Below are positions 8,753 to 49,180 of a stretch of DNA of 64,000 nucleotides, piece after piece (within the stretch, counting starts at the first letter, position 1; every line of letters starts with the position of its first letter). The stretch spans positions 5,518,001 through 5,582,000 of the forward strand of contig CM074762.1 of the NCBI GenBank assembly GCA_037355855.1, read 5' to 3'. The stretch comes from Pseudo-nitzschia pungens (taxonomy: Eukaryota > Bacillariophyta > Bacillariophyceae > Bacillariales > Bacillariaceae). Both the position numbers and the translations under genes were made by a program. Under the pieces are notes generated by a model. That model did not search any database. It had not been told where the DNA came from and saw only the letters and a program-made list of their open reading frames with translations.

Positions 8753-8755
8753 CTG

Positions 8756-9287: not shown

Positions 9288-9390
9288 CTGATCTTTTATT
9301 TGCAACAATAACAATAAAGGAACGTCCCTCTGTAACAAATACACCACTTTAAAGATAAACCACTAACAACATTAACTACAAGCGCTCGCG

Positions 9391-19300: not shown

Positions 19301-19522
19301 CATCAGTAAAGAGTTCAGCATCTTCCAGTTCTTCCATGAGCATGGTGTGGTTGTCATGGTATAGGGACGTGTCCTTCATAGGAATGGTTCGATCCATCCA
19401 CTGAACTGCTCCTTCTTTGAATAGGAGGTTGATCTGTGCTAGGTGGAGAAAGTCTCTGCCTAGTATAAGATCATATCTGCAGTCAGGAGAATGGAAGAGC
19501 CTTGCCTCTTGTAGGTCGATGG
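16353..19522 (-). CDS. Gypsy G2 Pol, part 2 (protease end, RT, RNase H, integrase)
   Basis: The open frame continues pol beyond the LINE. It begins in the protease C-terminal region (YDLILGRDF). Then come reverse transcriptase with YIDD near 18625, RNase H with YTDAS near 18130, and integrase with an atypical zinc region (CPDNC) and catalytic D (HVDLIG near 17195), D (IHDNGGE near 17000) and E (CERVHH near 16895). The tail repeats TESES. No stop occurs, so only the LINE disrupts it. The first ATG in this piece (19397) is not a real start; the true start lies in the part at 30731-31504. Confidence 0.9.
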
Positions 19523-19840: not shown

Positions 19841-22800
19841 TCAACCCTGATGTCCAGTAAGCCAGGCTCTGAGAAGAGCAGCCTCTTGTTGGTATGGCTG
19901 CACTGGTGGGACAGGCGCTGCATATTGCTTCCTTGCAAGGTGGATGGTTGCAAGCCACTGCCGCTTGGCAGTCAGGGTGTAACCTTGTAGGACGTGGAAA
20001 GGGGTTTGTAACAGGGAGTGTGACTGGGGAAGTGCACCAGCTGCACCAATTGCCAATTCTGAAGTGATGGAAGCATCAAGAGATTGGTGTTGTTCAGCAT
20101 CAAGGGTACCCCCAGGACCATGGAGTCGTTCATTCCTATAAGTCCAAAGATCCCAGGAGGTAAGAAAGAACTGATGGATGATAGCTGTAGCCCAACGTTT
20201 GGGAGAGCGCTTGCTTCCAATGTGGGAGTAGTAGTCAGCCTGAATTTGGTACCAGCGAGGAGACCACCTACCAAGAAGCCAGTTGTGCCAGCCAATAGTC
20301 CTCTGTGCCCTGACAGCAGACGCAATTGCAAGTGAGTAGGATGATGGATAAATGGTCAGGCCCTTCCGAACTCTGGTGAGAAGATCCACAATGGCAACAA
20401 CCAATGATGGATCAGTTTGTTCAACTTCAAGCCTCGTCTGCAGTGGTCCCTTGAAAGCTGACACGCTATGCGTGACAGCCCCAGTGTCCTTGCAGGAGAG
20501 CACATGAGAAACCTTCTCGTTGTCTGCATCACACAATGGGCACCTGGAGTGATCCTGATACTGGTAGTGAAGTAGTTGGTTGCCAACACCAATGCATCCA
20601 GAAGCAAACTTGACAAACCACCTTTGCATGCCAGGAGGTAGACGCTTGAAGGCAGACAGATGGGCACCCCAATGGATGGAACTCAGAACAGGTTGTGGAA
20701 TGGGGATGTCATGGTGGGTCTGCCAATATTTAAGAAGAGGAGGACCAGAAATGGCAACATGCAGAGCATTCTGATCAAACCTTGAACACTTGCATCCATT
20801 GAGAGAAAATGCCCAAGGCTCAAACACAAGTCTGGGATAGTGATGGGCAGAAGCTCTATGGACAGAGAGAAAGGCCTTGGCCATGCCATCAACCTGATGA
20901 TTGCGAAGGGCCCACCAATCAAGAAAAATTCCAGCTTGATGGCCCTGAACCCATTGAAAGTTCACAGAAATTGGCAGGGCAGAAATCATGTTTCTGATGA
21001 CATAAACATAATCAAAAGACTTTTGGGAAATAACCAATGGCCAAGATCCCTGAGCCTGTTTGAGAGCTGTGTCACCATCCAGAGCAATGTTGATAGAGCC
21101 AGAAGCAATATTAAAAAGATTCACCAGAGCAGTGCAACAGGTGAGAACTCCAATGATACCCGCCAGTTCACTCCTGTAGGATGACTGATCCTCAGGGGAT
21201 CCACTGACAAAATTACAGCCAGTGAGGAACAAAGAAGCAGACTTGGTGGAGGTATTGGGTGACAAAATGAAAGCAGAAGTTCCTCTGAGAAGGTCCGGAT
21301 CAAATGAACCATCACATACAGCACTGGCAGTACCACTCGCAATAGCATCAACAAGGTGCTGACAGCCAGCCTGTGGTAGGGAATATTGGTGGAGAAGTAC
21401 TCTTGGAGACGCACAGAGTGCATCAAAGGCATCTACTGGGGAGTCTGGAAGAGAATCAAATGGATTGTACTCCAGAGGATCCATGTCAGGAGGTTCAGAA
21501 TCAAAAGCAGAGGACCCAACAACGCGTACAACTTGTCCACAAATAACAGGGCAGACAAGCACATCAGCACAGGCTGGTTTGGCAGAAATGAGTTCAGAAG
21601 TGACCCTGTATCTACCCCTGCCCTGGGAGGTGCTCACAATCCAGCCAGTAGAAGTTTTGAAGAATATTCTGTTGGTAGATGGAGACAAAAACCAAGGCCA
21701 GAGAGAAGCCGTCTGGGGAGAGAGCCAATGCCCAAGATGGAAAGAAGGAGCCAGTGCCCTGGCTGCAGGGGGTGGACAGGAGGGAAGAAAACATGTCTGA
21801 AGAGCCTTAGTCCATAAGCGCTTTGCTGCTGGAGGCCAAGATGGAGGACATCTCGGCCAGTCAAGATGATCCCTCAAGTGATTGGAGGATGTCAGCTGGA
21901 AGGCCATGGGAGAGAGTCTTTTTCCATCTGGAGTACAAATGTCAGCAAGGGAGATAGCCTTGAGGGACATGCGCATGTGATTCAATAGGGACAAGTCAGC
22001 ACCTCGGAAGCCAGCGTTGACAAAGGCTTGCATGAGATAACAGTCATTGGAACGTAACAGAGGAAGATCTGGGAAGTCTTCAAACAAGCTCACAGGGTGA
22101 ACAGAGAAAAACTTCCACACATGTTTGTACCAGCAAGGAGTGACGTAGGAAGCAAAAGGATGATATGGGGTGAAACCAAGATGGAGAGGAATGCCAAGTT
22201 CGAGCCGTAGAGACTCAGCAGTTAGCCTGAGAATCCTACCAGTTTGGGAGGACCTGACAGATTCCTGAAAGAGGGTGGCAATATGACTGAACTCTTGGAG
22301 GAGGTATGGATGGATGAATCCAAAGCCTTGATAGAGGGAAGGACCATAGAACACATGTCTGGGAAATGTCCGTGACATCCCTGCTTTATTCAGCACTGGA
22401 ACAAGAGCTGGGTGAATTATCTTGGTCCAAGTGGCCTCATCAAGTTGCGTGACAGGCATGGGGTATTCAACAGACTTCATGAAAGAATACTTGAAGGTGT
22501 AGAGGGATGCGCGCTTTTCACACTTGGAAGCCTTGAGCTGAGAGCCAAAAGACTGAGACTGTGACTTCAAGTGAGCAATCTGTGCTTCCTCATTGCCATC
22601 CATGGAGATAAAAACCCCAAGAGTCTTGTCAGCATGGTCAACTTCAAAACGATCCAGGGTAGCGCGATTGCCATTCTTGTCAGCAACTGAGAAGTCACCA
22701 GGCATGTCAGCAATGGAGCGATAATCCCAACCGGATCCATTCCATTTGAAATCAATCAAATAACAGAAGGATTTGGCAGGTTCAATAGCACCACCAGTGG

Positions 22801-25753
22801 CAATAATCCCACCAGCCCACCGGTCAAGAGCTGCCTGAAAGTCAACAGCTAATTCCTCACCAGATGTGGAGGAATCAGAGCCAGCACAAAACAAATCTGT
22901 GTCATCCACAAAGGCAAAACCCACAAGAGAAACAAGTTGCAGTGACAATGAAGTGATAAGATGGACACCATGCCCAGCCTGTTGCATCATTCGGAAGACA
23001 ATTGTTGACACCAAAGCCCAAAGAGTTGGACCAATACCATTGCCTTGGCCACAACCACTGAGAGGAACAGGTTCATCACCATACACAGGACCTGACCGAC
23101 CAAAACCAGTTTTGATGTGGTGCTTGGCAAGTTGCAAAGTAGACAAAAGAACCTCACACACATGTGCAGGAACACCAAAGCTTTGGAGAGTGAGACCTGC
23201 AATGGGATGAGAGATCCTATCATAGCAGCCCTTAGCATCATTCATAGCAACAGCACCAGATCTGCGCTTCTGCCTCAACACATCACAGATGAGCTTCTTG
23301 TTCAGGCAGGTGTTGATGGCCTTGTGGTGTTTCCTGCTTCCATGTTGGTCAACAGCCACGGCATTGGCACGTTCAGCATGGGCAAGAATGCGTCTGCCAA
23401 TCATCTTGTTGTTGATTTGGAACTCAGGAGACATCAGCTGAATAAGCCTCATCTTATCCACTCTATATTCACCAGGTTTCTTGAATATCTCAACATCAGT
23501 GATGACCTGCCAAGCAGAAGGAGAGAAGCCAACAATCAATGGGACGGATCTCAGGAGAGTGTCAAACTTGTTCAACTGGGGATCCAGGGCAAATGCCTTG
23601 TGGTGGGCAAAACTCAAACAAGAAGGTTCACTGGCTGTGCGTTCCCTCTGACGTTTCCAGGCAGCAGCATTGTCAGCTGGACACACTGAATAGTCAAAAG
23701 GGGGCAAACTCAGAATAGAGGCAGGGACTTTGAGACAGGCAAGAAATTCAGAAAGGTATTTGTCAGTGGCAGGAGGAGGGATGTATGTGCCATCAAGGAC
23801 TTGGGAAGCAGCATGGGCAGTGCCTAGGTAGCCAAAGTCTTGAATGAAGGAGGGAGTCATGGAAGGAGTGCCAAGACACTGCTGTTGACGCCGGACATTG
23901 GATTCAGCCATAGCTGGAACCATAGTAGACTGGGACTCCAAGACCTGTTCAACACCATCCTGGCCAACTGCAATAGCTCTCAAGACTGCTGACTTGTTGA
24001 CACGTCCCCGAATAGACCGAGCAGCGAGACCAAGCTCTCTTTGAAGACGTTCCCTACGCATCCTGGCACGAATCTGAGAAGCATCCTGGTTGTGAGGTTT
24101 GCCTTCAGCAAGAAGTGCATCCACCAGGCCTTGATTGAAGGAGTCTCTCCATGAGGGGGCCAATTTCTTCACTGCCCGGTATTGCTTGTAAGCTTGTTTC
24201 AGATGGAGGAGAGCACTGGAAAGGTCACTGTGTTCTCCTTTGTAGAGAGAAAGCTTGCAGGCCAACCTTTTCAAAACAGTATGACTGGTGGACACACCCT
24301 GTCTCAACTTAACAACACGCCGCCAAAAGTCAATGGTATCACGATAGACTTGCAGCTTAGGTGACCATGGAACCAAACCAGCTCTAGTGTGGCAGAGGGT
24401 TTGTTCAACAGAGAGCCTGAGAGAGGTAGAGGTTTCATGGAGTACTTCATATGTGGTGATGAGATCAGTTCGCACAGAAATATCCCCAGACTGAAACTGA
24501 GCCAGTAGGTGCTCCAGCTTAGCCTGGAGAGAAAACACTCCAGCCTTAAGAAAGCTGTGCCGCACTCGCTTGAAATACCGTTGGCGCAAATGAGGGTGGG
24601 AGGACTGGAGTTTGGAATGAGAGAATCTCACAGTAGGTGGAAGATGTTTGCCCATAAGGCTGCAATTACAAACCTCAATCCAAAGCAGTCTATGGTCAGA
24701 TTCCATACCATGGGCACCACCAAAGGGACAATACCCAGCCCTGAGAACATCAACATTCTCAGAGACCCAAATGGCATCAATTGGTGTTCTGGTAGTGTTT
24801 CGGTTGTGAGTGGCAGGAGGAGAAGACGTACTATGAAGGGTAAGAATGGCATCTCTGAAACCAAGAGCCTTGAGCTCAAAAGACAAGCCATCAGTCCTGA
24901 CATCAGCATTCTGGTCAATCCCAACAATGACTTGATCACCTGCACCCAGGCAGACCTGAAGGGCAGCAGTCAAATCCCTGTGAAAGAGAATGCATGGATT
25001 GGGACTGAAAAGATTTTCAGCTGCTTGAAAGTATCGGTACTGTTGATTCCAGACTGAACCAAGATCCCTATCATTTTCAACTGGGCAGTAGGCAGAAAAC
25101 ATGGTGACATTGTAGCCATCCCTGCCCTGAAACTTGACAAAGGACCATCTACCAAGACCAGATGGATCAGCTCCATGTGCAACCTTGTGTGAGCTGAACA
25201 GCTGGTCAATGGAAAAACCTGTACCGCCAGGCTGAAGCCAAGAGCAGGCAGAAGCTTCATGCTTGTTGTTAGCAAGATAAGAAAAACTTGAGGGACTGAC
25301 ATGCTTCATGCGCCGATTGAAAAGGTCACAGGGCAGGAGTTTGGATTCATTCAAACAATGTTCAGCAAAAAGAGCCACACTGGCATTGCTCTTGACAAAT
25401 TGACGGGCGTTGTGCTTGGACATGGACATAAAGGCAGCTCTGCGCTGTGGTCCAATGTTTTGGAATGTGATGATGGTGGAGTTAGAGGATGGAGCTTGAG
25501 GAAAGGAATGACCAAAAGTGTCAGAATCCTTAGCAGCAAGAGATTCTCCATGAAGAGTTAATTGGACAAAATGAGAAACAGGGGAAGAGTCGGAGGGGGA
25601 AAAAGGAGAAACAGGAGAAGCATTGATGGGATTTGGATTGAAAGGCATCCCATCACACCTCATATCAGAAGAGCTAACCATGATCAGAAGGAAACCGAGT
25701 CTGTCGCACGGAAGAAAGAGTTGCCGGAGCTGATTTGGTGGAGACATTGGCAT
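19841..25753 (-). CDS. LINE ORF2: endonuclease, reverse transcriptase, RNase H
   Basis: 1970 aa, starting ATG 25753. The N-terminal apurinic-type endonuclease shows VGIDQNAD, TPIDAIWVS and SDHRLLW (about residue 350). The reverse transcriptase has FVDD near residue 949, in place of YADD. An RNase H domain has CDGSFD (about 1478), YRSELAGI, ALDGDTAL and the late NHQVD. Near 1736 lies a CPLCDADNEKVSHVLSC knuckle (C-x2-C-x8-H-x4-C). The order resembles the I/R1-like superclades. It overlaps ORF1 by 80 nt in another frame, so translation needs reinitiation or frameshifting. Confidence 0.92.
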   Translation of the reverse strand: MPMSPPNQLRQLFLPCDRLGFLLIMVSSSDMRCDGMPFNPNPINASPVSPFSPSDSSPVSHFVQLTLHGESLAAKDSDTFGHSFPQAPSSNSTIITFQNIGPQRRAAFMSMSKHNARQFVKSNASVALFAEHCLNESKLLPCDLFNRRMKHVSPSSFSYLANNKHEASACSWLQPGGTGFSIDQLFSSHKVAHGADPSGLGRWSFVKFQGRDGYNVTMFSAYCPVENDRDLGSVWNQQYRYFQAAENLFSPNPCILFHRDLTAALQVCLGAGDQVIVGIDQNADVRTDGLSFELKALGFRDAILTLHSTSSPPATHNRNTTRTPIDAIWVSENVDVLRAGYCPFGGAHGMESDHRLLWIEVCNCSLMGKHLPPTVRFSHSKLQSSHPHLRQRYFKRVRHSFLKAGVFSLQAKLEHLLAQFQSGDISVRTDLITTYEVLHETSTSLRLSVEQTLCHTRAGLVPWSPKLQVYRDTIDFWRRVVKLRQGVSTSHTVLKRLACKLSLYKGEHSDLSSALLHLKQAYKQYRAVKKLAPSWRDSFNQGLVDALLAEGKPHNQDASQIRARMRRERLQRELGLAARSIRGRVNKSAVLRAIAVGQDGVEQVLESQSTMVPAMAESNVRRQQQCLGTPSMTPSFIQDFGYLGTAHAASQVLDGTYIPPPATDKYLSEFLACLKVPASILSLPPFDYSVCPADNAAAWKRQRERTASEPSCLSFAHHKAFALDPQLNKFDTLLRSVPLIVGFSPSAWQVITDVEIFKKPGEYRVDKMRLIQLMSPEFQINNKMIGRRILAHAERANAVAVDQHGSRKHHKAINTCLNKKLICDVLRQKRRSGAVAMNDAKGCYDRISHPIAGLTLQSFGVPAHVCEVLLSTLQLAKHHIKTGFGRSGPVYGDEPVPLSGCGQGNGIGPTLWALVSTIVFRMMQQAGHGVHLITSLSLQLVSLVGFAFVDDTDLFCAGSDSSTSGEELAVDFQAALDRWAGGIIATGGAIEPAKSFCYLIDFKWNGSGWDYRSIADMPGDFSVADKNGNRATLDRFEVDHADKTLGVFISMDGNEEAQIAHLKSQSQSFGSQLKASKCEKRASLYTFKYSFMKSVEYPMPVTQLDEATWTKIIHPALVPVLNKAGMSRTFPRHVFYGPSLYQGFGFIHPYLLQEFSHIATLFQESVRSSQTGRILRLTAESLRLELGIPLHLGFTPYHPFASYVTPCWYKHVWKFFSVHPVSLFEDFPDLPLLRSNDCYLMQAFVNAGFRGADLSLLNHMRMSLKAISLADICTPDGKRLSPMAFQLTSSNHLRDHLDWPRCPPSWPPAAKRLWTKALQTCFLPSCPPPAARALAPSFHLGHWLSPQTASLWPWFLSPSTNRIFFKTSTGWIVSTSQGRGRYRVTSELISAKPACADVLVCPVICGQVVRVVGSSAFDSEPPDMDPLEYNPFDSLPDSPVDAFDALCASPRVLLHQYSLPQAGCQHLVDAIASGTASAVCDGSFDPDLLRGTSAFILSPNTSTKSASLFLTGCNFVSGSPEDQSSYRSELAGIIGVLTCCTALVNLFNIASGSINIALDGDTALKQAQGSWPLVISQKSFDYVYVIRNMISALPISVNFQWVQGHQAGIFLDWWALRNHQVDGMAKAFLSVHRASAHHYPRLVFEPWAFSLNGCKCSRFDQNALHVAISGPPLLKYWQTHHDIPIPQPVLSSIHWGAHLSAFKRLPPGMQRWFVKFASGCIGVGNQLLHYQYQDHSRCPLCDADNEKVSHVLSCKDTGAVTHSVSAFKGPLQTRLEVEQTDPSLVVAIVDLLTRVRKGLTIYPSSYSLAIASAVRAQRTIGWHNWLLGRWSPRWYQIQADYYSHIGSKRSPKRWATAIIHQFFLTSWDLWTYRNERLHGPGGTLDAEQHQSLDASITSELAIGAAGALPQSHSLLQTPFHVLQGYTLTAKRQWLATIHLARKQYAAPVPPVQPYQQEAALLRAWLTGHQG

Positions 25754-37040: not shown

Positions 37041-37568
37041 TGCAGTCTTCCGCCTAGAATGATATATTTCTTCCCTGCAGTATTTGCCTTTGCAATCGCA
37101 TCTTGGATCTGACGCGCTGCGATCTCGTAACTCGCTGGTGGGATTTCCGCGGTGCTTCCTTCCGAAACACGTCCCCGTCGAAACCAAAATCGATCAGCGT
37201 TTCAACCGCTACGGTGTTTCGTCGTTTGAGTTCCAAAAGCTCCACCGTTGCTGGATCCTTTGCTTCATTGATATCTCCTTTTGGCAAAATCATGAGCTCG
37301 TGAACTATGTTACGATCTCCAAGACAGTTTCGTGTGAAGGGACTAATTCCAACCTTCTCCCAAAAAGATCTCGATCTTACTGGAGAAAATGCTGCATCGA
37401 ACGCAGAGTCTAATTCCGTGGTCTCTTGTAATCCAAACACCATCACCGGATAGTCGCTCGCCTGTAAGGATCTCCTGTCTAAGTAGCACGCTGCATGTAG
37501 TTTCTTCCTATTCTTGCGGTAGGCCGTCTTGAAGGAGGGACTATAGCTCCAGTCAGCTGGCACTCCTG
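37041..37568 (-). pseudogene. pogo-like transposase, piece 2
   Basis: Codes for the third catalytic aspartate region (PADWSYSPSFKTAYRKN) and the C-terminal part of the DDE_1 domain (FWEKVGISPF). A frameshift near 37160 moves the frame from DVFRKE to STAEIPPASYEIAARQIQDA, which continues to the MITE. The apparent start at 37563 is GTG and is not a real start. Confidence 0.8.
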
Positions 37569-38115
37569 GAACATTATGGAAAAAAAAAAAAAAACGTTAA
37601 TTTCCATTTCCGCGCGCGCCAAATCGTTCGTAATGCGCACATTCTGTAGATCATAAAGGGGACAAAATTTGCCGCGCCCCCCCCTTTTGGATTTCCATGG
37701 TGGACACTTAGCGTGGCGGGCCCCATCATTGTGAGATCTTCGTATATATATATGTATATAGAGTGAGTTTTATAATTGCCCCCATCTATTTTGGATAGAC
37801 AACGTGGACACTTAGCGTGGCGGGCACCTTCATCCAACGGTTCCATGTGCGACCATAATGCTTTATTTTCAACGAATTTCGCCTTCAACGCATGAGCTTG
37901 AACACTTGGAAGAAACGGACACGTTTTATTTTCATGGTTTTATTGTCCTCAACAAAACTGTCCTCAAAAATGTTGTCCTCAACCTTTTGTCCTCAACAAA
38001 ACTGTCCTCAACCTTTTGTCCTCAACAAAACTGTCCTCAACCTTTTGTCCTCAACGAATGTCCTCAACGAGTTTTGTCCTCAACCCGCCACGCTACGGGT
38101 CGCTCGTAGCCCACT
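37569..38115 (+). repeat. Left terminal inverted repeat of the 9.9-kb element
   Basis: Matches the reverse complement of 46925-47491 with few differences. It contains a poly-A run after GAACATTATGG, two CACTTAGCGTGGCGGGC motifs, an ATATATATATGTATATAG stretch, and an array of TGTCCTCAAC units near the inner end (37945-38085). Confidence 0.9.
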
Positions 38116-38241
38116 ACGGGTAGCCCGCTACGGTGGAATACGACAGTGGCGATTTTGCGGGGAGGACGCCACGCTGCGGGAAGAGGCAAGACAAAAATAA
38201 TCACCACTACCTCTACTTTGAGAAGAGCTCATCGAACCGAC

Positions 38242-39297
38242 ATGGACTCTTTCGAAGCTTCTTTTGCGGCTCTGTCTCTTCAAGATGCAGAGCCTACAAG
38301 ATCGAGGAACAGGAGAAGAAATGCTAGACAACGAGAGCAGAGTCAGGAGCAAAAAGAAAGGATCAAGCATCATGAGCAGCAGCGGCGGTGGCAGCAGCAG
38401 CAAGAGCTTCAGTATTCAGTCGATGAATTGCGGCTTAAGGGACTTCTTTTTTGTGGATTCACAGAGGAGAGACAACGCAAAGTTAAGTCCGATAGGAATG
38501 AGAGGCGCTTTCGTGGGTGCTATGGAGTCTCCTCCCTTGCTATCTCAAAAGTTGTGAAGGACTTGATACAAGAAATTTCTGCAAAGAAGTTTGATCTAAA
38601 ATATTTCTTTCTCACACTCTATTGGTTAAAGGCGTATCCGAGATATGTCCAGATGGAAGGTCCATGGAATTTCAGCCCAGAGACAATCGGACCGAAGGTG
38701 AAGGAGTACACTGCTGCTTTTCAACGTTTGAAAAAGAAGAAGATCAAGTGGTTTTCAGATGAGGAGATCAAAGATGATGTCTTCATTGTCTCCGTAGATG
38801 GAGTACACTGCAGGATTCAAGAAGCTCGCAGGGATCCAGGAAGCAAATGGTACAGCCACAAGTCACACGGAGCTGCTCTGGCATATGAGCTGGGAATCTC
38901 TCTGAGATCCGATCGGCTTGTTTGGATAAATGGTCCATTTCCTGCAAGTCGACACGATTTAAGTATTTTTAGATATGGTGCCGGAACAAAGGACAACCCT
39001 GGCAGAAATTTGAAGTCAATGATTCCAGCTGGGAAACGAGCTATCGCTGATAGTGCATACAGAGGAGAAGACAACAATACAGTTTCTGTTACTCGAGAAG
39101 GTGACTCTACAGAAGTGAAAGAATTGAAAGCTCGGGCCAAGTCAAGACACAAAACATTCAACTCGCGTATCAAGTCATTTGCTATATTATCAACCGAATT
39201 CCGTCATCCTCATTCGGTTCATCAAGCAGTGATGGAATCGGTTTGTACTTTGGTACAATACGATATTGAAAGTGGTCATGGATTGTTTGAGCTCTAG
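38242..39297 (+). CDS. PIF/Harbinger-like DDE transposase
   Basis: 351 aa from ATG 38242; the frame is open upstream to 38146 without ATG. The N-terminal ~70 residues are Arg/Glu/Gln-rich and helical, probably DNA binding. The DDE_4-type core shows VSVDGVH (D186), a SRHDLSIFR motif and AIADSAYRG (D270). Where the family has R-H/Q-E-x-x-N-x-R-x-K, this protein reads RHKTFNSRIKSFAIL, with K304 at the expected catalytic Glu (codon AAA for GAA). It is therefore probably inactive as it stands, unless the Glu lies elsewhere. The frame is otherwise intact, and it is the only transposase between the repeats. Confidence 0.85.
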   Translation: MDSFEASFAALSLQDAEPTRSRNRRRNARQREQSQEQKERIKHHEQQRRWQQQQELQYSVDELRLKGLLFCGFTEERQRKVKSDRNERRFRGCYGVSSLAISKVVKDLIQEISAKKFDLKYFFLTLYWLKAYPRYVQMEGPWNFSPETIGPKVKEYTAAFQRLKKKKIKWFSDEEIKDDVFIVSVDGVHCRIQEARRDPGSKWYSHKSHGAALAYELGISLRSDRLVWINGPFPASRHDLSIFRYGAGTKDNPGRNLKSMIPAGKRAIADSAYRGEDNNTVSVTREGDSTEVKELKARAKSRHKTFNSRIKSFAILSTEFRHPHSVHQAVMESVCTLVQYDIESGHGLFEL

Positions 39298-39644
39298 TAG
39301 TTGTACCTTTAAAAAATTTTAATCAAAGCTATTTTGAAGATTAGTGATCCCCATTTAGTGAGGAGTTGCCAGCGCATTGAAATGGTCGGCAGCCGCCACT
39401 CTGCGTTGCGAGGTACTTAGAGTGCAACGAATCGTGCCGATGTGCGATACAAACATGTCGAGGGGGTTCCACGCTGGGTTTATAGTGCAACGAATCGTGC
39501 CGATTGGGGGGGGGTCTCCACGCTGGGCGTAGATGTCGACGCAGGGTGTACTGTAAAAGTCCACGCTGTTTGCACTTACTAGTATGTAGTCCATCATAGC
39601 TACCGGTACGCTGTATTGAATAGACTATTTTCATTATTTTGAAG
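39298..39644. other. Intergenic, short direct repeat, no gene
   Basis: AGTGCAACGAATCGTGCCGA occurs twice (39420 and 39482), each near TCCACGCTGGG. Probably the regulatory region of the next gene. Confidence 0.6.
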
Positions 39645-41540
39645 ATGTTCTTTCTTAAAACACTTTTTTCTGCTGGTCACAAGACCACTTCTGCCTCCGA
39701 GGAAAGTGATAAAGGAGTCACCATGAAAGTGTCTGCTGCTGAGGGAGCCTCTGCTTCTGATGAGGGAAAGGAACAGTCCTCTTCTGATGAGGACCCGACG
39801 GAGTCTTCTGATGAGGACAGGAAGGACACGGAAGAGTCTGCTGATGAGGGCACGAAAGAGTCTGCTGCCGAGGAAGAATCGAATGAGAGCTCATCCCGCA
39901 AACTTACTGATGAAAAACGAAACAACGTAAATCAGAAAGCTTCAATTGTGCGAACTGGAATCGCAGCCATCTACGACCCTAATGATCCAAAAAGCACGGA
40001 TGCCCTTCTTCAACCATTGCAGCTCCGTGTCCGAAAGAAAGTGACCTATGCACAGTCAACGAGACGCAAGCCTAGCAAGAACAACCGAAAGGCACCACCG
40101 CCTTCAGCCCCAATCCACCGCCTGCTCAAATCCCCACCGGTTCAACCTTCAAAAGACTCCCCACCTCCACCTCCTGCTGAACATCCTCCGACTCCACCTC
40201 CATCTCCACCTCCTGCTGAAAATCCCCCACCTCCACCTCCTGCTGAACATCCTCCGACTCCACCTCCACCTCCTGCTGAAAATCCCCCACCTCCACCTCC
40301 TGCTGAACATCCTCCGACTAAACCTCCACCTCCACCTCCTGCTGAAAATCCCCCACCTCCACCTCCTGCTGAACATCCTCCGACTCCACCTCCACCTCCT
40401 GCTGAAAATCCCCCACCTCCACCTCCTGCTGAACATCCTCCGACTAAACCTCCACCTCCACCTCCTGCTGAAAATCCCCCACCTCCACCTCCTGCTGAAC
40501 ATCCTCCGACTCCACCTCCACCTCCACCTCCTGCTGAAAATCCCCCACCTCCACCTCCTGCCGAACATCCTCCGACTAAACCCCCACCTCCACCTCCTGC
40601 TGAAAATCCCCCACCTCCATCTCCACCTCGTGCTGAAAATCCCCCGATTCCACCAATTGATCCTCAAGCGCCACCACTACCTGCTCGACCTGCTGAAAAA
40701 CAAGTACTACCACCACCGACTGCTCCTCTACAACACTCCATGCCCCCACCCCCACCAGTTGCTGATGTTCCGATTCGAGATCTCTCTGTTCCCATCGTTC
40801 CCCCATTCGGAAGCCCAATGGCAGCTTTTTTGAGCGCACTCCGTAATAGGAAGGAACCACCATTGGCTAATGTGAATGACGTTGGTGGTAAAGATGGCGG
40901 CCCCTCACCTGCATTCTGCGGGGCGACCGACCAACTCGAATTTGCTAATGTCGATGATTTTGATGGTGAGGATGGCAACACCCCAAAGTCACTCTGCGTG
41001 GCGCCCAGCAGCATCCACGATGACGATACAGTGTCTGAAGCTTCAAACTTCGGCGTAGTGTACCCAGTCTCCCAGAACAAGAACAAGAACAAGAACAAGA
41101 ACAAGAAGAGTAGCAATGGAAAGCGGCTGACAAATGAACCCCCAAGGAACGATTTCAGCGTCAAGGACAGAACTTCCCGTAGGATTTTTGATGTCACTAC
41201 AAAGAATATGAAAAACTTGCAGCACAGCACGACATGGGAAGACAAGATAGATCGTGACGAAAAACCTTACTCTGTCCACTTCATGGGTACCTACGATGAG
41301 GCTGTTCCAAACCTTTTTCTTTCTGAAAACAACCGGAAGAAAAGAGAAAAGCCTGCCGTAATGTTCCTCGTTGGGAAACATTTCCAGGAGTATAAGAAAC
41401 CTTTTGCTTCCCAGTTGAAGAGGATTGCTACTGAGATGGAGAACGACACGGACGCTGGGCGTTACCACACCGAAGATCCGGAAGAGTACGCAAAGAAAGT
41501 GTTTGGAAAGGCCCATCCACCTTCAAAGAAAAAAAAATAA
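39645..41540 (+). CDS. Acidic/proline-rich protein, transposon cargo
   Basis: 631 aa from ATG 39645. About 10-90 is Ser/Glu/Asp-rich (SSDEDPTESSDEDRKD). About 165-350 is a proline tract of repeated PPPPPAENPPPPPPAEHPPT blocks, encoded by ~60-bp DNA repeats. The C-terminal 250 residues are ordered-looking, with an Asn-Lys run (about 480-490), KPYSVHFMGTYDEA, FLVGKHFQEYKKPF and a KKKK end. I recognise no family. The layout (acidic, proline rod, basic C-terminal domain) would suit a nuclear or structural scaffold, but this is a guess. It has the transposase's orientation, 347 bp downstream. Confidence 0.7.
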   Translation: MFFLKTLFSAGHKTTSASEESDKGVTMKVSAAEGASASDEGKEQSSSDEDPTESSDEDRKDTEESADEGTKESAAEEESNESSSRKLTDEKRNNVNQKASIVRTGIAAIYDPNDPKSTDALLQPLQLRVRKKVTYAQSTRRKPSKNNRKAPPPSAPIHRLLKSPPVQPSKDSPPPPPAEHPPTPPPSPPPAENPPPPPPAEHPPTPPPPPAENPPPPPPAEHPPTKPPPPPPAENPPPPPPAEHPPTPPPPPAENPPPPPPAEHPPTKPPPPPPAENPPPPPPAEHPPTPPPPPPPAENPPPPPPAEHPPTKPPPPPPAENPPPPSPPRAENPPIPPIDPQAPPLPARPAEKQVLPPPTAPLQHSMPPPPPVADVPIRDLSVPIVPPFGSPMAAFLSALRNRKEPPLANVNDVGGKDGGPSPAFCGATDQLEFANVDDFDGEDGNTPKSLCVAPSSIHDDDTVSEASNFGVVYPVSQNKNKNKNKNKKSSNGKRLTNEPPRNDFSVKDRTSRRIFDVTTKNMKNLQHSTTWEDKIDRDEKPYSVHFMGTYDEAVPNLFLSENNRKKREKPAVMFLVGKHFQEYKKPFASQLKRIATEMENDTDAGRYHTEDPEEYAKKVFGKAHPPSKKKK

Positions 41541-42085
41541 TTAATTAAGAGGTGGAAAATGCGGGTATCGTACTTGAGAGTTGCGGTACTAGTAACATGT
41601 AGAAGCGACTTGGGTGTGCAAGCATGGAGGCCTTAGTAAAAATAAGAAATAAAAGCCGTTGAAAGGCGGGTCGGAGCGTGGCGGTACCGGTAAAATATAT
41701 AAGCTACTTGGCTGCCGGAGCATGGCGGCCTTGGTTATTAAGCCAGACCCGGAACAAGCAACAATTGCTCTATTTTGATGTAACTTCACTCTTACTGTAC
41801 AATTCAGAGTTTTGAAATACAGTTCTAATTAAACTTACATAATACGAAGTAAACAAAAGTTACTACCAAAAATCAGGGGAACCAGTCCGACGTATTGTAC
41901 GGTAAGGTTTAACTACTAACTACAACATCAGACCACGATCAACCAAGAACGCGATGTGGCCTCTTGCAAGTTGCTTCTTCTTTCTCTCTAGAGCACCGAT
42001 GAAAGGTTGATAAGACAAGAAGCAGTGGTACTGCGTGAAGATGACACCAACATGTTTTCAACCAATCCTGTCATAATTCCAGTTG
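41541..42085. other. Intergenic, no gene seen
   Basis: Contains two similar ~75-bp units (41630 and 41695) around GAGCGTGGCGGTACCGG and GAGCATGGCGGCCTTGG, followed by the leader of the interrupted 151-aa gene. Confidence 0.55.
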
Positions 42086-42173
42086 ATGCCGAAAGCAACG
42101 GAGCTTTCCGCTTTCGCCGTTCAGTTAGTGCACAATTTTTGTCAGAACCCTGATAAATTTGAATCATTCAGAG

Positions 42174-42194
42174 TCTTTTGCGATTACCATTCCA
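42174..42194. repeat. 21-bp target-site duplication, left copy
   Basis: Starts TCTTTTGCGA; identical to 44298-44318. Confidence 0.95.
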
Positions 42195-44297
42195 CAATTT
42201 GCGCATCGCGCATTTTGTCCGACGTTCCGATGTTCCAGTACTAAAAATACGTAGATTTCTACACAACTTTACCATGCGATATCTCGCTCCCTTTTACACC
42301 ACCAATCACAACCCCAGGACCTACATGTATTAACCAAGACCTGCGCTCTTTGTTTCTGCTATTGGTTCAGTTGCTGGCTGCTTCTTTTGGTTGATTTGGT
42401 TGCCAATTCACCACTCGGCCGATCGATCGAGCAGCAGCAACAACCAAAACAAAACCGACACATAATTTTCTACAGCACTTCCAGTACAGATTCTACCGTA
42501 CAGCAAAACCGACAACAACGTTGTATTTCTGCTTCGATCTGTTTCCCAGCTCCATTCCAAGGCCCTTAAGTATATCTTATACTTAATGCTCTACACTGTT
42601 TCCAAGCTGCTTAAGTGATTCTCACTTAATGTTCTTCCACTGTAGGAATATTTCTACACGAAATTCCAGATGTCATCTGTTTTCAAGTCTACTGCCCTGC
42701 TGGACCCTATGTGTTTTCGCTTATGGTCCTACTGTTTTATGACCCAAGCCCCAAAGCCGCTAAGTACAGTTTGCTTAAGGCTCCACCACCTACATATACC
42801 TCTCAGGTGTACAGTATAAATGTCATCTGTTTTCAAGTCTACTGCCCTGCTGGACCATATGTGTTTTCGCTTATGGTCCTACTGTTTTATGACCCAAGCC
42901 CCAAAGCCGCTAAGTACAGTTTGCTTAAGGCTCCACCACCTACATAACCCTCTCAGGTGTACAGAATAATTGTCATCTGTTTTCAAAACTACTGCCCTGC
43001 TGGATCATAAGTGTTTTCGCTTATGGTCCTACTGTTTCCTGACCCAAGCCCCAAAGCCGCTAAGTACAGTTCGCTTAAGGCTCTCCTACCTACATAACCC
43101 TCTCAGGTGCACACTTCAACTGTCATCTGTTATCAAGTCTACTGCCCTGCTGGACCATAAGTGTTTTTGCTTAAGGTCCTATTGTTTTTTGACCCAAGCC
43201 CCAAAGCCGCTAAGTACAGTTTGCTTAAGGCTCTCATACCTACATATACCTCTCAGATGCATTCTTCAACTGTCATCTGTTTTCAAGTCTACTGCCCTGC
43301 TGGACCATAAGTGTTTTCGCTTAAGGTCCTACTGTTTTTCTGACCCAAGCCCCAAAGCCGCTAAGTACAGTAAAGTACAGTTCGCTTAAGGCTCCACCAT
43401 CTACATATACCTCTCAGATGCACACTTCAACTGTCATCTGTTTTCAAGTCTACTGCCCTGCCGGACCATAAGTGATATTTCCTTATGTCCACCTGTTTTT
43501 TGACCCAAGCCCCAAAGTCGCTAAGTATTCTTTACTTAATGCACCACCACCATTATATACCCCTCCAGTTCACAGTACAGCTGAGACCTGTTTTCAAGCC
43601 TACAGCCCTGATGGTCCATAAGTGTTATCACTTAGAGCCCTTGTTTCCAAGCTACTACGGGAGAGCAAGTTCAAGTTCTAACAGAAGGCCAGCTGTTACG
43701 AATTTGAATTTGGTAGTAGGCTCCACTGCCTCTACGTGGCTACTACTAAGTTCGAACAGGAGGACAGCTGTTCCGAATTTGGTAGTAGGCTCTGCACTTT
43801 ATGTACCATACAGTGGTAAGGAATGTGTTCGGGGCTGACTACTCGCATTACTGATGCTGCAGTCCAGCATTTAGAGAGGAGTTTTGCTTTTGTACGCTGA
43901 CCACTTGCATTACTGATACTATGTATCTGAGGAAGGGTTTTGCTTGTGTCGGCTGACAACTAGCATTACTGATGCTTTACAGCAGCATTCCAGGGACAGT
44001 TTTGCTTGTGTCTTTCCCTTTCACGTTCTTGTTACCCCGTCTCCTGTACGCTTTGCAACAGCAGTGTCTGTTGTGCTCTGGACTGGTTTGTTTTTTTCCT
44101 GTTTCTTACCAAGGTTCGTTTGCAAAATAGCCGTATTTACAACCTGGGGCCTATTCCCCATGGTTGAGGCGGCGCGTCGTTCTACGACTTGGGGTCCTGA
44201 CTCTTCGATTGAGGCGACGATAAAGTCTGGTTACAGACTGAGTAGCTTTTAACCACCTTCGGTGGATTTTCCTACTTAAATAAGTATATTATTATTA
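42195..44297 (+). mobile_element. Non-autonomous LINE derivative (5' and 3' ends only)
   Basis: 2.1 kb with no ORF of size. Its first ~60 bp (GCGCATCGCGCATTTTGTCC) match the 5' end of the big LINE (30640-30708 reversed), and its last ~130 bp match that LINE's 3' UTR and ATTATTATTA tail. The body is ~150-bp tandem repeats. A perfect 21-bp duplication shows it was inserted by target-primed reverse transcription, presumably by proteins of the full LINE. Confidence 0.9.
42668..43600 (+). repeat. ~150-bp tandem repeats of the LINE derivative
   Basis: Units start at about 42670, 42822, 42971, 43121, 43271, 43433 and 43585 with TGTCATCTGTTTTCAAGTCT. Each holds the hairpin-forming CCATAAGTGTTTTCGCTTATGG-type sequence (7-9 bp stem) and GACCCAAGCCCCAAAGCCGC. 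Confidence 0.9.
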
Positions 44298-44318
44298 TCT
44301 TTTGCGATTACCATTCCA
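44298..44318. repeat. 21-bp target-site duplication, right copy
   Basis: Identical to 42174-42194. Confidence 0.95.
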
Positions 44319-44773
44319 ACACTTTTCCAAAAGGATCAAGAGAAAGAAGATTGGCTCAAAAATACAGAGCTAACTTTTTGTTGCGAAGCCCTGAATTGAA
44401 AACAACCCCCATCGTCACGCATACTAACCCTACCCGCCACACACAGTGTCTCCCCGTAACTCCACCACAAAGAGTCAAGAAGCCCCGCTTGGAGAGTCCA
44501 CCACAAAGAGTCAAGAAGCCCCGCTTGGAGAGTCCACCACAAACAGTCAAGAAGCCCCGCTTAGAGAGTCCACCACCATTTATTCCACAAACAAAGATCG
44601 TACATTCACCTCTTCTTTCAAGAAACCTGCACCCAGAAATGTCGAGTAAGTTCCAAAATCATTGACTGTTACGTAACGCAGCGTGGCGGTGGTAGCAATT
44701 TTCTGGTCTCACATTGTCTCACATTGTCCCACCACATCGTTTCGCCTAAGGAGGATTCAACAACAGCGTGGAA

Positions 44774-45445
44774 ATGTGGTCTGCAGATTGGGCTGAAGAG
44801 AACGAAAACATTCATTGCTTTGATCTTGATATTGATAGATCGTGGAACAATCTTTTTGTCCAACCAATTGTTGTCCCCAACATTATCTCCAATGGTGAAC
44901 GCGTGGATATGTTGTCCATTGAGATGCGCGTTGTTGATATTGGTGATGTCCTCGACGTGAAGTACAAGGCAAGGCTTGAGGTTGACGGGAAGGGCATCTT
45001 TATTACGATGCCTCGTGTCCCGAAATTGTTCTTCAACCAGATTGATAATTTGTACTCCGGCACTATGGAAGATGATCCACAATATGCAGCCCATTCAATC
45101 CAAGCAGTGGAAATCATGCGTAGTGAACTCAAGCAGCAACGCATTATCTACTTCCAGTTCCCAGATGAAATCACTTGCGATAACTCTCACTTCAATGACA
45201 AGATCACTCGAAGTCCTACCGAGCTTCAGTTGAAGCTGGCTAAACCTGTCCTCCGTTCTCTCCCAGCGCCAATGTTTGATGGTCAGGGCGAAGACCATCC
45301 AAAGTTTCAGTACATCCCAGGAGTCAAGTGGGAATGCGCCATTGCAACTTCTGTGAAAGAGGTTACAAACAAGCAGAAAGACGAAGACGACATGCTTTCT
45401 ATGCTCTTGGCTACTGGCGTTGCCAGAATGGATCTAGGCAAGTGA
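44774..45445 (+). CDS. 223-aa cargo protein, unknown
   Basis: Starts ATG 44774 (MWSADWAEENENIHCFDLDI). The sequence is soluble and looks like mixed alpha/beta, with beta-type stretches (LFVQPIVVPNII, ARLEVDGKGIFITMP), a long C-terminal helix region and no signal peptide or membrane segment. I recognise no domain. It lies between the 151-aa gene and the Pro/Gly-rich frame, all on the plus strand, as expected for transposon cargo. The reading frame is clean. Confidence 0.65.
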   Translation: MWSADWAEENENIHCFDLDIDRSWNNLFVQPIVVPNIISNGERVDMLSIEMRVVDIGDVLDVKYKARLEVDGKGIFITMPRVPKLFFNQIDNLYSGTMEDDPQYAAHSIQAVEIMRSELKQQRIIYFQFPDEITCDNSHFNDKITRSPTELQLKLAKPVLRSLPAPMFDGQGEDHPKFQYIPGVKWECAIATSVKEVTNKQKDEDDMLSMLLATGVARMDLGK

Positions 45446-45530
45446 TTGTTCCCACCACCAATCTGTGTTTTTATGATAACCAAGTAATCATCCATTACTA
45501 ACATTTTACATCAAACAATATCACAATTTA
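45446..45530 (+). other. Possible intron or leader with TACTAAC branch-like site
   Basis: A TACTAAC at about 45497-45503 lies 27 nt before TTTAG (45528-45532). The next coding frame has no ATG, which fits splicing. No donor was found that joins the upstream gene in phase, so this stays uncertain. Confidence 0.3.
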
Positions 45531-46010
45531 GCTCCTGATCCTCCTGCTTCGGATATATATACTCGAGGTCGTCCAAAAGGTCCTCCAAAAGATCCGCCGC
45601 CGAGAGGTCCACCAGGCGGCGGTGGCGGTGGCGGTGGTCGCCCAGAACAGCCCCTACTCCCCTTACCACCTGTTCCGGACACCCCATTGCTACCACCTGT
45701 TCCGGACACCCCTCTGTTACCACCTGTTCCCACCAGCAAACTGACGAACAAAAAGGCACTTTTAGAGAGACCTGAGAGAACCAATCCAAAAGTAAGGACC
45801 AATGAACAGATACGCAACGAGGCCTCAAACCGAGCAGTAAGCCAAACGGAACAGGTTCGACAAAAACGGAAAGCTGAAAATTTGGCACAGCGTCGTCACG
45901 CAGCGTCACCGGTAGATAAAGCTGTATACTATCGCGAGCAGCAAAAGGCAGCGAAAGAAGGCAAGGAGTACTATGCCGAATGGATGGAAAACAATCCTCC
46001 GCCTGAATGA
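45480..46010 (+). CDS. Pro/Gly-rich to basic cargo protein, start unresolved
   Basis: The frame is open from 45480 with no ATG at its start. It reads a Pro/Gly-rich first half (GRPKGPPKDPPPRGPP, an eight-Gly run, two LLPPVPDTP repeats). A Lys/Arg/Gln/Glu-rich helical second half follows (QVRQKRKAENLAQRRHAA, YYREQQKAAKEGKEYYAEW). It ends at TGA 46008-46010, but the same frame stays open for 42 more protein-like codons. Start may be on another exon. Function unknown; the basic helix could bind nucleic acid. Confidence 0.6.
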   Translation, partial: PSNHPLLTFYIKQYHNLAPDPPASDIYTRGRPKGPPKDPPPRGPPGGGGGGGGRPEQPLLPLPPVPDTPLLPPVPDTPLLPPVPTSKLTNKKALLERPERTNPKVRTNEQIRNEASNRAVSQTEQVRQKRKAENLAQRRHAASPVDKAVYYREQQKAAKEGKEYYAEWMENNPPPE

Positions 46011-46139
46011 CTCCTGCGCTCACCTGATTCAATAGATGAATCTATTAATTCCTCTGATCTTGACCCTATTGCAAGGTATCACGAAGCAGGTGCAGTACTT
46101 GACGAACTCCGAGATTTTTTACATAAATTGAATGACTAA
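46011..46139 (+). CDS. In-frame continuation after TGA of the preceding gene
   Basis: After TGA 46008-46010 the frame runs 42 codons to TAA 46137-46139. It encodes an acidic helix-like tail (SIDESINSSDLDPIARYHEA, AGAVLDELRDFLHKLND). The composition and the lack of stops suggest it was the real C-terminus. Confidence 0.5.
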   Translation, partial: LLRSPDSIDESINSSDLDPIARYHEAGAVLDELRDFLHKLND

Positions 46140-46140
46140 A

Positions 46141-46758
46141 CTAAAACTTAGAGGCCTCCTCTGTATTAAGACTCTCTAGACCATGATCAACTGTCTTCTT
46201 TCTCATCTTTTTGTTCCGTTTGTCAACCCAGAACGGCCTTTCAATTTGCTTACGACGTTCTCGAAAAACACGGTCCCTGAATATCTTCTCTGGAAACGCT
46301 TCGTATTCAGGTCTCTTCTTTTGAAGCTCCAGTGGTTTCGCTTTCTCATACAATCCACCAGCTTTCAAGTCGTTTTCCAATAGTTTCTTTGCTTGGTTCT
46401 CTGGATGATTCCATCGATGATACCCTGCCTTGAGTAGAGTTTCCTTCGGATACTTTTCCAATTCCTCCGTGAGCGCTGCTTGATCAAATGAAACGGCGGC
46501 GGCATTCTCGTCAATCGCCTTCTTGAGGCTCCGGAAGTTGGATCGAAAGTTTTGCTTCTTGTATGGTTGGAAGAGAACATGGGTGTCATGAATTTGGTCG
46601 ATTGTTTTAGATGAAATACCAGGGTCTTTTGCTATAATCTGCTTGATCCCATTGTCCTCATCACTCTCAAGTTGCAACTTAAGATAAGCTTTGGCTCTGC
46701 TGGATTTTTGTCCGCAACTCCAAGGCTCCACAGCGTTGTTCCCAGTGTCTTGTGACAT
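46141..46758 (-). CDS. 205-aa basic cargo protein
   Basis: Starts ATG 46758 (MSQDTGNNAVEPWSCGQ) and faces the other cargo genes, its stop two bases from theirs. It is Lys/Arg/Glu-rich, with GYHRWNHPENQAKKLLENDL, KPLELQKKRPEYEAFPEKIF and a basic end (KRNKKMRKK). A pattern of this kind (a W-H-x-S/E...LL-x-x-D stretch followed by an R-x-E-Y-x-x-F stretch) recurs, as I remember, in uncharacterised proteins of algal genomes. No Myb motif is evident, although it occupies the place of the second gene of classical Harbingers. Confidence 0.65.
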   Translation of the reverse strand: MSQDTGNNAVEPWSCGQKSSRAKAYLKLQLESDEDNGIKQIIAKDPGISSKTIDQIHDTHVLFQPYKKQNFRSNFRSLKKAIDENAAAVSFDQAALTEELEKYPKETLLKAGYHRWNHPENQAKKLLENDLKAGGLYEKAKPLELQKKRPEYEAFPEKIFRDRVFRERRKQIERPFWVDKRNKKMRKKTVDHGLESLNTEEASKF

Positions 46759-46924
46759 GATTCTTCTCAATTATTGTCTTGTCCCGCTATTGTCCAAGGT
46801 GTGTTGTTGTTTGTATTGTTCTCAAGTATCCCTGAGTGATGAGAGGGTGGTGCCGCAGCGGGGCGTGGGCATCCCCGTAGCCAAGCGTGGGACATCATCG
46901 TAGTGGGCTACGCTCCGTAGCGGG

Positions 46925-47491
46925 CTACAAGCGACCCGCAGCGTGGCGGGTTGAGGACAAAACTCGTTGAGGACAAAACTCGTTGAGGACAAAACTCGTT
47001 GAGGACAGTTTTGTTGAGGACAAAAGGTTGAGGACAGTTTTGTTGAGGACAAAAGGTTGAGGACAGTTTTGTTGAGGACAAAAGGTTGAGGACAACATTT
47101 TTGAGGACAGTTTTGTTGAGGACAATAAAACCATGAAAATAAAACGTGTCCGTTTCTTCCAAGTGTTGAGCGTGCGTTGAAGGCGAAATTCGTTGAAAAT
47201 AAAGCAATTATGGTTGCACATGGAACTGTTGGATGAAGGTGCCCGCCACGCTAAGTGTCGTTCTTCAAAAATAGATGGGGGCAATTATAAAACTCACTCT
47301 ATATACATATATATATATACGAAGATCTCACAATGATGGGGCCCGCCACGCTAAGTGTCCACCATGGAAATCCAAAAGGGGGGGGCGCGGCAAATTTTGT
47401 CCCCTTTATTATCTATAGAATATGTGCGCATTACGAACGATTTCGCGCGCGCGGGAATGGAAATTAAGGTTTTTTTTTTTCCATAATGTTC
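46925..47491 (-). repeat. Right terminal inverted repeat of the 9.9-kb element
   Basis: Reverse complement of 37569-38115. The inner end (46950-47125) carries about a dozen GTTGAGGACA units. One CACTTAGCGTGGCGGGC motif has lost its GGACA part relative to the left repeat. Confidence 0.9.
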
Positions 47492-49180
47492 CTGGTAGTA
47501 GTAGCACACCCTTTTGGCAAGTTCCTGCAGCAGCTCTTTGTCGAGACGCCCAGGACCCGAATCCACGATTAACAAGACCCATTTACTCTTTGCTGGCTGT
47601 ACATCTGGGTACAACGGAACAAGACTTGTTAGAACGTACTTAAGAAACTCTGCGCTGTCCATACCAGCGTTGGCGTTGCAGTTTGTGGAGTGAGGCCGTT
47701 TAGTGATTTGTCCGAAGCTCCATCATATTCCTTTGCAGGTGCCTGCGCGATTCAGTTCACTAGTGAAACTGCAGGAGATCCGTCTACTCTCTTCCGTTGT
47801 TGCATTGCTCTTGAGTTGAAAGTGTACTTGAATGGGATCTCCAGCAGCGGTGCTCCCCCCTATCATCGTACACCACGAGCTGCTTTTGAAAGCTTTCAAT
47901 GCTCCCTTTGGCAGAGTCGCGCTGCGTGGACTATATTCGCTTACTGGATGCCCTCCAGCGCGAGTGCATGTCCCATCCAGCGTTAATCCAGTCTCATCAA
48001 CGTTCAGAATATGATGCAACTGACCGGGAGTAAATACAAGCTCCCCAACGTGACCATTGAACTTCTCCGTCTCCGAGGGCAACCGAGCGAAGCCCTTTTC
48101 AATTAACAGCGATTTCAAGTTGGTAAACCACTCATTAATTAGATTGTAAGTGGTCCACAGAGCTCTCCTCTCCTCCAGCTGTGAGTTACTCTTAATTACT
48201 TCCAAGCTTTCAACAAACCTCGGCTGCAAGCGCCGGTACAGATGATCAAAACATTTCAGAGAACAAGGCCCCTTGGATAAACAAGCTTCCAAGTCCTCCA
48301 CAGCCTTCTTCTGATTAGGCTTCTCTTTCATTCCAGCAGAACTAAGAAGAAAAGAAGTCTCCATTGCTGTAACCAGCGCCTCTTCCACTTCCACAGGAAT
48401 AGTAGATGGTCTCCCCTTACGTCCAACTGAAAAACCCTTGTTGCCCTGGGTCAAGTGCCATCTCAAAGTGTTCATCTTACTAATATCAGTTCCATTCATT
48501 TTGTTCACTGTAGCACAGGCTTGTTGCAAGGAGATACGCTTTGATCCAGGCTGCTCTTTGTACATTTTCTCTGCTGCAAGGTAAGACTCATGATCTTTGT
48601 CCTTCTTCCTTTGTTTGATTGTCATGTCATATATCATTTGGGAGTGATTTCTTCTGGGTTTCTTGAGTGCTTGCTCTTCTCCTGTGTTGCTGGCTTTGGC
48701 GTTGGCGTCGATGTTGGCGTCGGCGTTGTTTGCCCTCTTGTTGCCACTATTGCTGCTGGGCGTCGTGGTGGTTGAAGTATTGTTTTGGCTTTTGCAGTTT
48801 TGGCAGCAATTACAGACAGCACTGTTTCCACCCTCTCCCCTTGCCACAACTAATACAGATTCAGCAGACGCCATAGGAGAAACCGACGCAGCTTTAATGG
48901 GTAGTGAGATTGACCTTGGAATCGGAGTCTCCTTGATGTACTTGGTTCTTAGTCTAAGCACTGCTCTTCTTTGCAGTGACTTGCTGTTGCACTCTTGTTC
49001 TGTAAATCCAAACATTAGCATAGATTTGGCTGCAGTAATCCGATACTTCTGATTAAACTTGTAAACAGTAGCCAGGTGTCTTGCCGCTGCGTTGGTTCTC
49101 TCGCATATGGCTAGGGCATGTCCATTCTTGAAAGATCCAACAGGCACTGTTGCTGGAGTTTTTTTAGAATTTTCTTCCAT
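47492..49180 (-). pseudogene. pogo-like transposase, piece 1 (N-terminus)
   Basis: ATG 49180. The first ~220 residues hold a basic region and a low-complexity Asn/Ala stretch; an HTH-type region follows (ISLQQACATVNKMNGTDISK, RWHLTQGNKGF). The DDE core starts with HILNVDETG. A TGA at 47723-47725 interrupts; the same frame resumes with the GMDSAEF and LLIVDSGPG segments. A 2-nt GTGTG slip near 47505 shifts the frame just before the Harbinger insertion. Confidence 0.85.

Follow-up and report, generated by a model that had tools for sequence, protein, structure and literature searches.

A stretch of 64,000 nucleotides from Pseudo-nitzschia pungens (GCA_037355855.1, CM074762.1 positions 5,518,001-5,582,000, forward strand; hereafter the window) contains, at positions 37569-47491, a unit of 9923 bp that an earlier interpretation made without database searches (hereafter the sequence-only reading) took for a multi-gene transposon of the Harbinger type. 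The question raised by this locus is whether the additional genes really belong to the transposon and, in that case, what they may do for it. The element has four predicted genes, namely a transposase and three accessory genes called here ORF2, ORF3 and ORF4 (ORF, open reading frame), and related gene sets recur elsewhere in the genome. We consider it fairly probable that this is a cut-and-paste transposon of the PIF/Harbinger (PHIS) superfamily, from a lineage whose members often encode four proteins; one or more of the accessory ones would bind arrays of short repeats near the element ends and act as partners of the transposase.

Structure of the element and of its genes

The copy in the window (A1, forward strand) starts with GAACATTATGG at 37569 and finishes with CCATAATGTTC at 47491, and it is flanked by CTG target site duplications (37566-37568 and 47492-47494) that can be read directly from the sequence, just as initially proposed. 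Its terminal inverted repeats correspond to positions 37569-38179 (+) and 46853-47491 (-). They are identical at 568 of 592 aligned bases, and their alignment score is 887 when the best of 50 shuffles reaches 26. Given the extent of this alignment, the repeats are approximately 610-640 bp long; their presence had been correctly recognized, but the proposed length of about 550 bp had not. Similarly, the outer ends of the 9.9-kb unit were well placed, but the unit is not a single one, since the sister copies A2, A3 and A4 lack about 2.1 kb of it, a segment also present at many other genome sites. The missing part (42195-44297, +) is a nested insertion within ORF3 that the sequence-only reading had overlooked. 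It contains 150-bp tandem units, has a TTA-rich end and lies between the two copies of a 21-bp direct repeat (42174-42194 and 44298-44318; repeat family D17). At least 72 genome matches to it were found (40 of 1295 candidates scored); these include near-full copies, and some copies span only its positions 627-2103. It is a separate dispersed repeat that is not part of the transposon and, because of the long duplication and the TTA-rich end, it is probably a retroposon. The uninterrupted sister copy A3 is 7641 bp long.

The transposase (351 aa; 38242-39297, +) matches DDE_Tnp_4 (PF13359, E = 2.5e-9, 37.4 bits for a cut-off of 24.8), in agreement with the DDE_4-like transposase that had been suspected. 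The D, D and E catalytic columns align across families. At the third catalytic position, A3 and all seven aligned rows from other families (two copies of B, C, Cp, D and two E-type loci; the B copy L017, which contains stops, was left out) have E, and A1 and A2 have K. In fact, a single codon distinguishes the transposases of A1 and A3, and it is the one for this third catalytic position. These three copies are the family A loci with a transposase: A4 has no transposase match and is spread over approximately 14 kb. A1 and A2 share about 700-770 bp of flanking sequence on each side, with approximately 99% identity up to the ends of the loci, so they look like the duplication of one segment rather than two insertions. 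A3 is found at another place of the genome with its own CAG duplication.

Downstream of the transposase, ORF2 (631 aa; 39645-41540, +) has an acidic start, a proline-rich middle and a conserved C-terminal domain (approximately 41058-41537). ORF3 follows on the same strand. Its first exon begins with an N-terminal domain (42086-42194) whose start ATG is shared with the uninterrupted A2 and A3; the exon is cut by the nested repeat and resumes at 44319-44645 with KKPR repeats, according to splice prediction and the comparison with A2 and A3. A predicted GT-AG intron (44646-44750, phase 1) separates it from exon 2 (44751-45437), which contains a 223-aa frame and is modeled as beta-rich in a relative, and a predicted GC-AG intron (45438-45531, phase 1) leads to exon 3 (45532-46010), made up of a Pro/Gly stretch and a basic tail ending in NPPPE, an ending also present in the B family. 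Finally, ORF4 (205 aa; 46141-46758, -) is predicted to be all-helical. The frames of 631, 223 and 205 aa had therefore been delimited correctly, but not the number of genes: of the five additional protein frames that had been counted, the KKPR, 223-aa and Pro/Gly-to-basic ones are exons of one gene, joined in phase by the two predicted introns. Relatives from the C family (L042, L043 and L044) carry an N-terminal domain, a stretch of basic repeats and the equivalent of the 223-aa frame in one open frame, which measures 444 aa in L042. The ORF3 predicted from a single ATG in the copies without the nested repeat would have 542 aa in A3 and 533 aa in A2. With ORF3 interrupted by the nested repeat and K as the third catalytic residue of its transposase, the copy in the window looks inactive.

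Some neighboring features deserve mention. The element seems to be inserted into a gene, parts of which lie at 47351-49180 (-) and 37054-37443 (-). A relative of this interrupted gene forms one open frame at L096 (1222-3000, -), with DETALTLDG and VDSGPG patterns that we take to be those of a pogo-type transposase; for the 485-aa frame in the window, Pfam gave no match at E 0.001. The window also contains several retroelements, with reverse transcriptase frames at 1480-6009, 12119-13543, 16356-19397 and 19844-25753, two of them with integrase domains.

Recurrence of the gene set in the genome

Five sequence families of the genome (A, B, C, Cp and D) carry three or four of the genes. Linkage was evaluated within 20 kb among the gene loci found by genome searches with each protein. 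All 14 ORF3 loci are near an ORF4 and 11 of them near a transposase of the lineage, 19 of the 25 ORF4 loci are near such a transposase, and 20 of the 28 transposases are near an ORF4. These counts use 28 of 29 transposase rows (C2:3887866 was omitted as the second piece of a counted locus), 14 ORF3 rows (7/7 from one search and 7/9 from another, the remaining two being pieces of counted loci), 25 ORF4 rows (22/22 from a first search and 3/29 from a second, from which 22 duplicates and 4 small adjoining pieces were omitted) and all 77 ORF2 rows. The ORF3 counts are low because the searches miss the B-family ORF3, which was found only by reading frames. Six ORF4 rows have no such transposase nearby: ORF3 matches lie 8-12 kb from three of them, one, on C8, adjoins a D-type ORF3 tail (by eye), and the remaining two are short or stop-ridden pieces.

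The gene content of the individual families supports the same picture. All four genes are present at the three transposase loci of family A, although ORF3 is interrupted in A1. Five long elements of family D were delimited between GGGCCCTCCGGAACT patterns, the first G of which is part of the target duplication (8183, 8275, 8294, 8484 and 19285 bp). All five have matches to the transposase, ORF2, ORF3 and ORF4, some of these genes being broken, and all have matching duplications at both ends (CTG in two, CAG in three). The D copies compared have common breakpoints. Two of the long elements (C1:4756322 and C1:5076863) have identical flanks and would thus represent one duplicated insertion, which leaves four independent D sites. 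The single Cp locus (C2:6582610-6590554) gathers the four genes within approximately 8 kb. Two places of family C combine the transposase, ORF3 and ORF4 within 12-15 kb, and a third place has ORF3 with ORF4. Family B has the transposase with ORF4 at all six of its places; ORF3 was read in one copy, and four others align over its first-frame stretch (frames unchecked). The six E-type loci combine a transposase and an ORF2-type domain, without any ORF3 match at the sensitivity used; one of them has an ORF4 match 16.7 kb away, which belongs to a B element. The transposases of the other families share approximately 32-61% identity with the family A one.

The structure of the four-gene element and the linkage of its genes are well documented by these comparisons, which support the larger multi-gene lineage that had been proposed. 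In this genome, ORF3 and ORF4 are not seen mainly as unlinked host genes, and copies that hold only the transposase are not seen in family A, though the E-type loci have no ORF3 match at the sensitivity used.

Subterminal arrays and the role of the accessory proteins

Both ends of A1 carry arrays of a short motif. The left 700 bp contain 10 copies of the 9-mer TGTCCTCAA(C) (37943-38084, +) and the right 700 bp contain 12 inverted copies (46950-47125, -), with no copies of TGTCCTCAA between the two ends. In family D, AACCCACG is found 13 times on the left, 10 times inverted on the right, six times in the middle and twice in the opposite direction in each end. Family B has an array of CTGGTGTCG inside its one located end (by eye). 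The subterminal arrays differ between A, B and D; those of A and D are designated by their motifs, TGTCCTCAAC and AACCCACG respectively. Such family-specific arrays would be expected if proteins encoded by the elements bind them.

Families A and D also have putative short relatives with the same ends, similar to miniature inverted-repeat transposable elements (MITEs). GAACATTATGG is found at 208 genome sites versus 24 for the reversed pattern. Among 100 sites listed, it forms 35 inward pairs, 33 of which are 492-595 bp long, when shuffled strands yield a mean of 9.4 pairs and a maximum of 19. Both ends were read in three A-type MITEs, whose duplications are CTG, CAG and CTG, and each of the three MITEs counted holds 5 or 6 copies of the A-family 10-mer per direction. 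For the D end, there are 42 occurrences versus 0, with 11 short pairs of 896-1228 bp. One A-type MITE is located in the window itself (8749-9290) and is 95% identical over 550 columns to a MITE stretch of L001. At C1:4495366-4495404 (L021, 2799 onward), a D-family end directly abuts a GAACATTATGG end of family A, so an A-type MITE was probably the insertion target of this D element. An A-type inverted repeat of full length, with 90% identity, was also observed at G000:C7:2204483-2205039; it has no partner nearby and no family gene match within 15 kb, among the places listed.

In the scenario that we favor, the transposase would cut at the element ends and at least one accessory protein would bind the subterminal arrays. 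The candidates are ORF3, with its N-terminal domain predicted to be helical and its stretches of basic residues, and ORF4, with its predicted helices; DNA binding by these proteins is plausible. Roles in nuclear import or packaging, which the sequence-only reading also put forward, find no direct support here. The array-bound proteins may guide the transposase to the correct ends and would take the place of the single Myb/SANT or MADF partner of the known elements. No Myb/SANT match was found in the element proteins with Pfam at E 1 or 10, which still allows for a diverged domain. In two nearly identical sequences of the C family, the N-terminal domain of ORF3 has a weak likeness to ARID (13.4 bits for a cut-off of 24.1, E = 0.11), but single sequences from A, D and Cp do not show it, and the PDB search yielded no ARID chain. 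The profile likeness of the ORF3 beta domain to Hsp20/alpha-crystallin was rejected, as hhalign against 12 Hsp20 sequences gave a probability of 0.2%, not above 40 column shuffles, and PF00011 had no match at E 1. Beside a B-family ORF3, L078 encodes a 230-aa frame (622-1311, +) with a repeated EPVQTPKEV tail; parts of it resemble the ORF3 beta domain by eye, and it has no Pfam family above the cut-off.

Several observations weigh against this scenario. ORF2, ORF3 and ORF4 match no DNA-binding family above the curated Pfam cut-offs. ORF4 has no sequence match in the PDB, and the best E-values of the others (0.54 for ORF3, 0.058 for the C-terminal part of ORF2 and 1.2 for the N-terminal domain of ORF3) are not convincing; the structure models are poor, with a predicted template modeling score (pTM) of 0.40 each. 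The genome search did not detect ORF2 as a component of family B or C; either some of the four genes are dispensable, or this one has diverged beyond detection. The differences within family A are few and mostly replacements (10 replacement and 1 silent between the ORF3 of A2 and A3, 5 and 1 between the ORF4 of A1 and A3). Broken genes are found in several D copies: one transposase and one ORF4 contain a stop, and one ORF3 is in two pieces. The duplications are not uniform either, since the five B ends read comprise three CAG and two that are not CWG, the other B end not having been located, and the ends of A4 read GCG and CTG, which excludes a shared duplication.

A broader version of the favored scenario is possible, although we hold it only tentatively. 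The element would then represent a deep Harbinger-type lineage with a four-protein machine, whose diverging accessory proteins read the family-specific arrays and whose ORF2 C-terminal domain has been exchanged with another superfamily as part of a shared toolkit. Of the 77 genome matches of the ORF2-type domain, 60 have no transposase of the lineage within 20 kb. Two such places were inspected. At L094 (1595-4800), the protein with this domain adjoins a Plavaka-like transposase frame (26.0 bits, just under the cut-off of 26.3, E = 6.6e-6); at L095, no neighbor gene was seen within the readable 4 kb. This neighborhood, at one place of two and with a score just under the cut-off, suggests that the C-terminal module of ORF2 is shared with another transposon superfamily. 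If so, it would be a further example of accessory genes shared between superfamilies, similar to that of the TET/JBP genes (PMC12730594, in the part available).

Other explanations have to be considered. An unlikely but serious one is that the accessory proteins are anti-silencing factors, one of which would bind the family-specific arrays in order to lift or resist host silencing, as VANC does for VANDAL elements. The arrays of A, B (one end, by eye) and D do differ, like the rapidly diverging tandem repeats targeted by VANC (PMC10398659, in the part available). Nevertheless, the A array is also found in the MITEs, which a role in transposition explains directly, and the likeness to VANC is one of array pattern. 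Gene capture by transposable elements is a known phenomenon, and the additional genes could also be captured passengers without any role in movement. The numerous ORF2-type domains far from transposases of the lineage agree with this possibility, yet it seems improbable: the families that share these genes have widely diverged transposases, the domain order of ORF3 is common to families, and in ORF4 silent change between D and Cp is saturated (139.6/160.2 sites) while replacement change is far lower (a nonsynonymous divergence, dN, of 0.23). A chance nesting of unrelated repeats that mimics one element is very hard to believe; one nested repeat is real and retroelement frames do exist in the window, but A3 has the same four genes and ends with its own duplication elsewhere, and the D elements repeat the gene set. 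Equally implausible is a virus-derived or Maverick/Polinton-like element, with which the long inverted repeats, the several genes and the size of approximately 8-10 kb are compatible at first sight, but which is contradicted by the 3-bp duplication and the DDE_Tnp_4 transposase, by the lack of confirmed IMG/VR relatives for ORF4, the transposase and the C-terminal part of ORF2 (for the last two, only close relatives were detectable), by the 22-residue match of the 223-aa frame in IMG/VR, and by the lack of viral fold matches for ORF3 at E 0.001, a search that did not separately address Polinton hallmark genes or other capsid folds.

If the lineage does depend on three linked partner genes, it would be a test case for the additional proteins that a simple DDE transposase can need. 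Likewise, if each family has its own arrays and short relatives, the joint change of protein and array sequence could be followed.

Comparison with known systems

The DDE_Tnp_4-type domain and the D, D, E triad of A3 and the other families place the element in the PHIS superfamily (PIF/Harbinger, ISL2EU, Spy, Pangu and Nuwa). The comparisons with its groups follow the cited papers in the parts available. PIF/Harbinger elements proper have a related DDE transposase, a 3-bp duplication, MITEs sharing their ends and at least one element-encoded partner. They need two proteins (PMC2836001), the partner of PIF elements can be a MADF protein, and the known plant and animal PIF elements are all described as two-gene (PMC9710019). 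Their inverted repeats range from 5 to 1042 bp, approximately 93% being under 60 bp, so that long ones are rare but known (PMC4482050). Contrary to their TWA duplications and single partner, CTG or CAG duplications (in A1, A3, the MITEs and five D elements) and three linked genes are found here. The same CTG/CAG duplications do not fit two other groups: ISL2EU, which has AT duplications and a YqaJ partner, and PHISTA, which has TA duplications and a TET/JBP gene. Neither YqaJ nor TET/JBP was matched by the element proteins in Pfam.

The PHISTA or TET+ Harbinger elements of rust fungi and HarbingerS (PMC12730594) are similar in being PHIS elements with further proteins, and accessory genes such as those of TET/JBP are reported there as common to several transposon superfamilies. 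These elements have TA duplications with a TET/JBP dioxygenase, or a SET protein, whereas no such Pfam match exists here. VANDAL elements and VANC (PMC10398659) share the non-coding tandem repeats that diverge between elements; VANDALs are MuDR-type elements (PMC12730594), and the likeness concerns the array pattern alone. Harbinger4_TP is listed as a family with 3-bp duplications (PMC12730594) and, to judge by its name, presumably comes from T. pseudonana, in which Harbinger elements have been reported (PMC2806351). No description of a four-gene Harbinger lineage was found among the literature matches listed, which cover open-licence papers and not Repbase Reports.

The closest comparison, made by description, is with the NuwaI group (PMC4482050), which shares the 3-bp CWG duplications and a DDE transposase of the PIF/Harbinger superfamily. 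In the present lineage, CWG duplications are found in A1, A3, three MITEs and five D elements, the exceptions being two of the five B ends and one A4 end. NuwaI elements are reported from animals only, have mostly two ORFs (transposase and Myb/SANT) and inverted repeats of 12-61 bp, and average approximately 4462 bp. Here, there are four genes without a Myb/SANT match, inverted repeats of the length measured in family A and sizes of 7.6 kb (A3) and 8.2-8.5 kb (four D copies). Thus, the duplications fit the NuwaI group while the repeat length and gene number do not. The chemistry of the element is ordinary, and its accessory gene set is unusual and repeatedly inherited. Since these genes recur with the element, it appears to move with a wider set of proteins than the relatives known so far.

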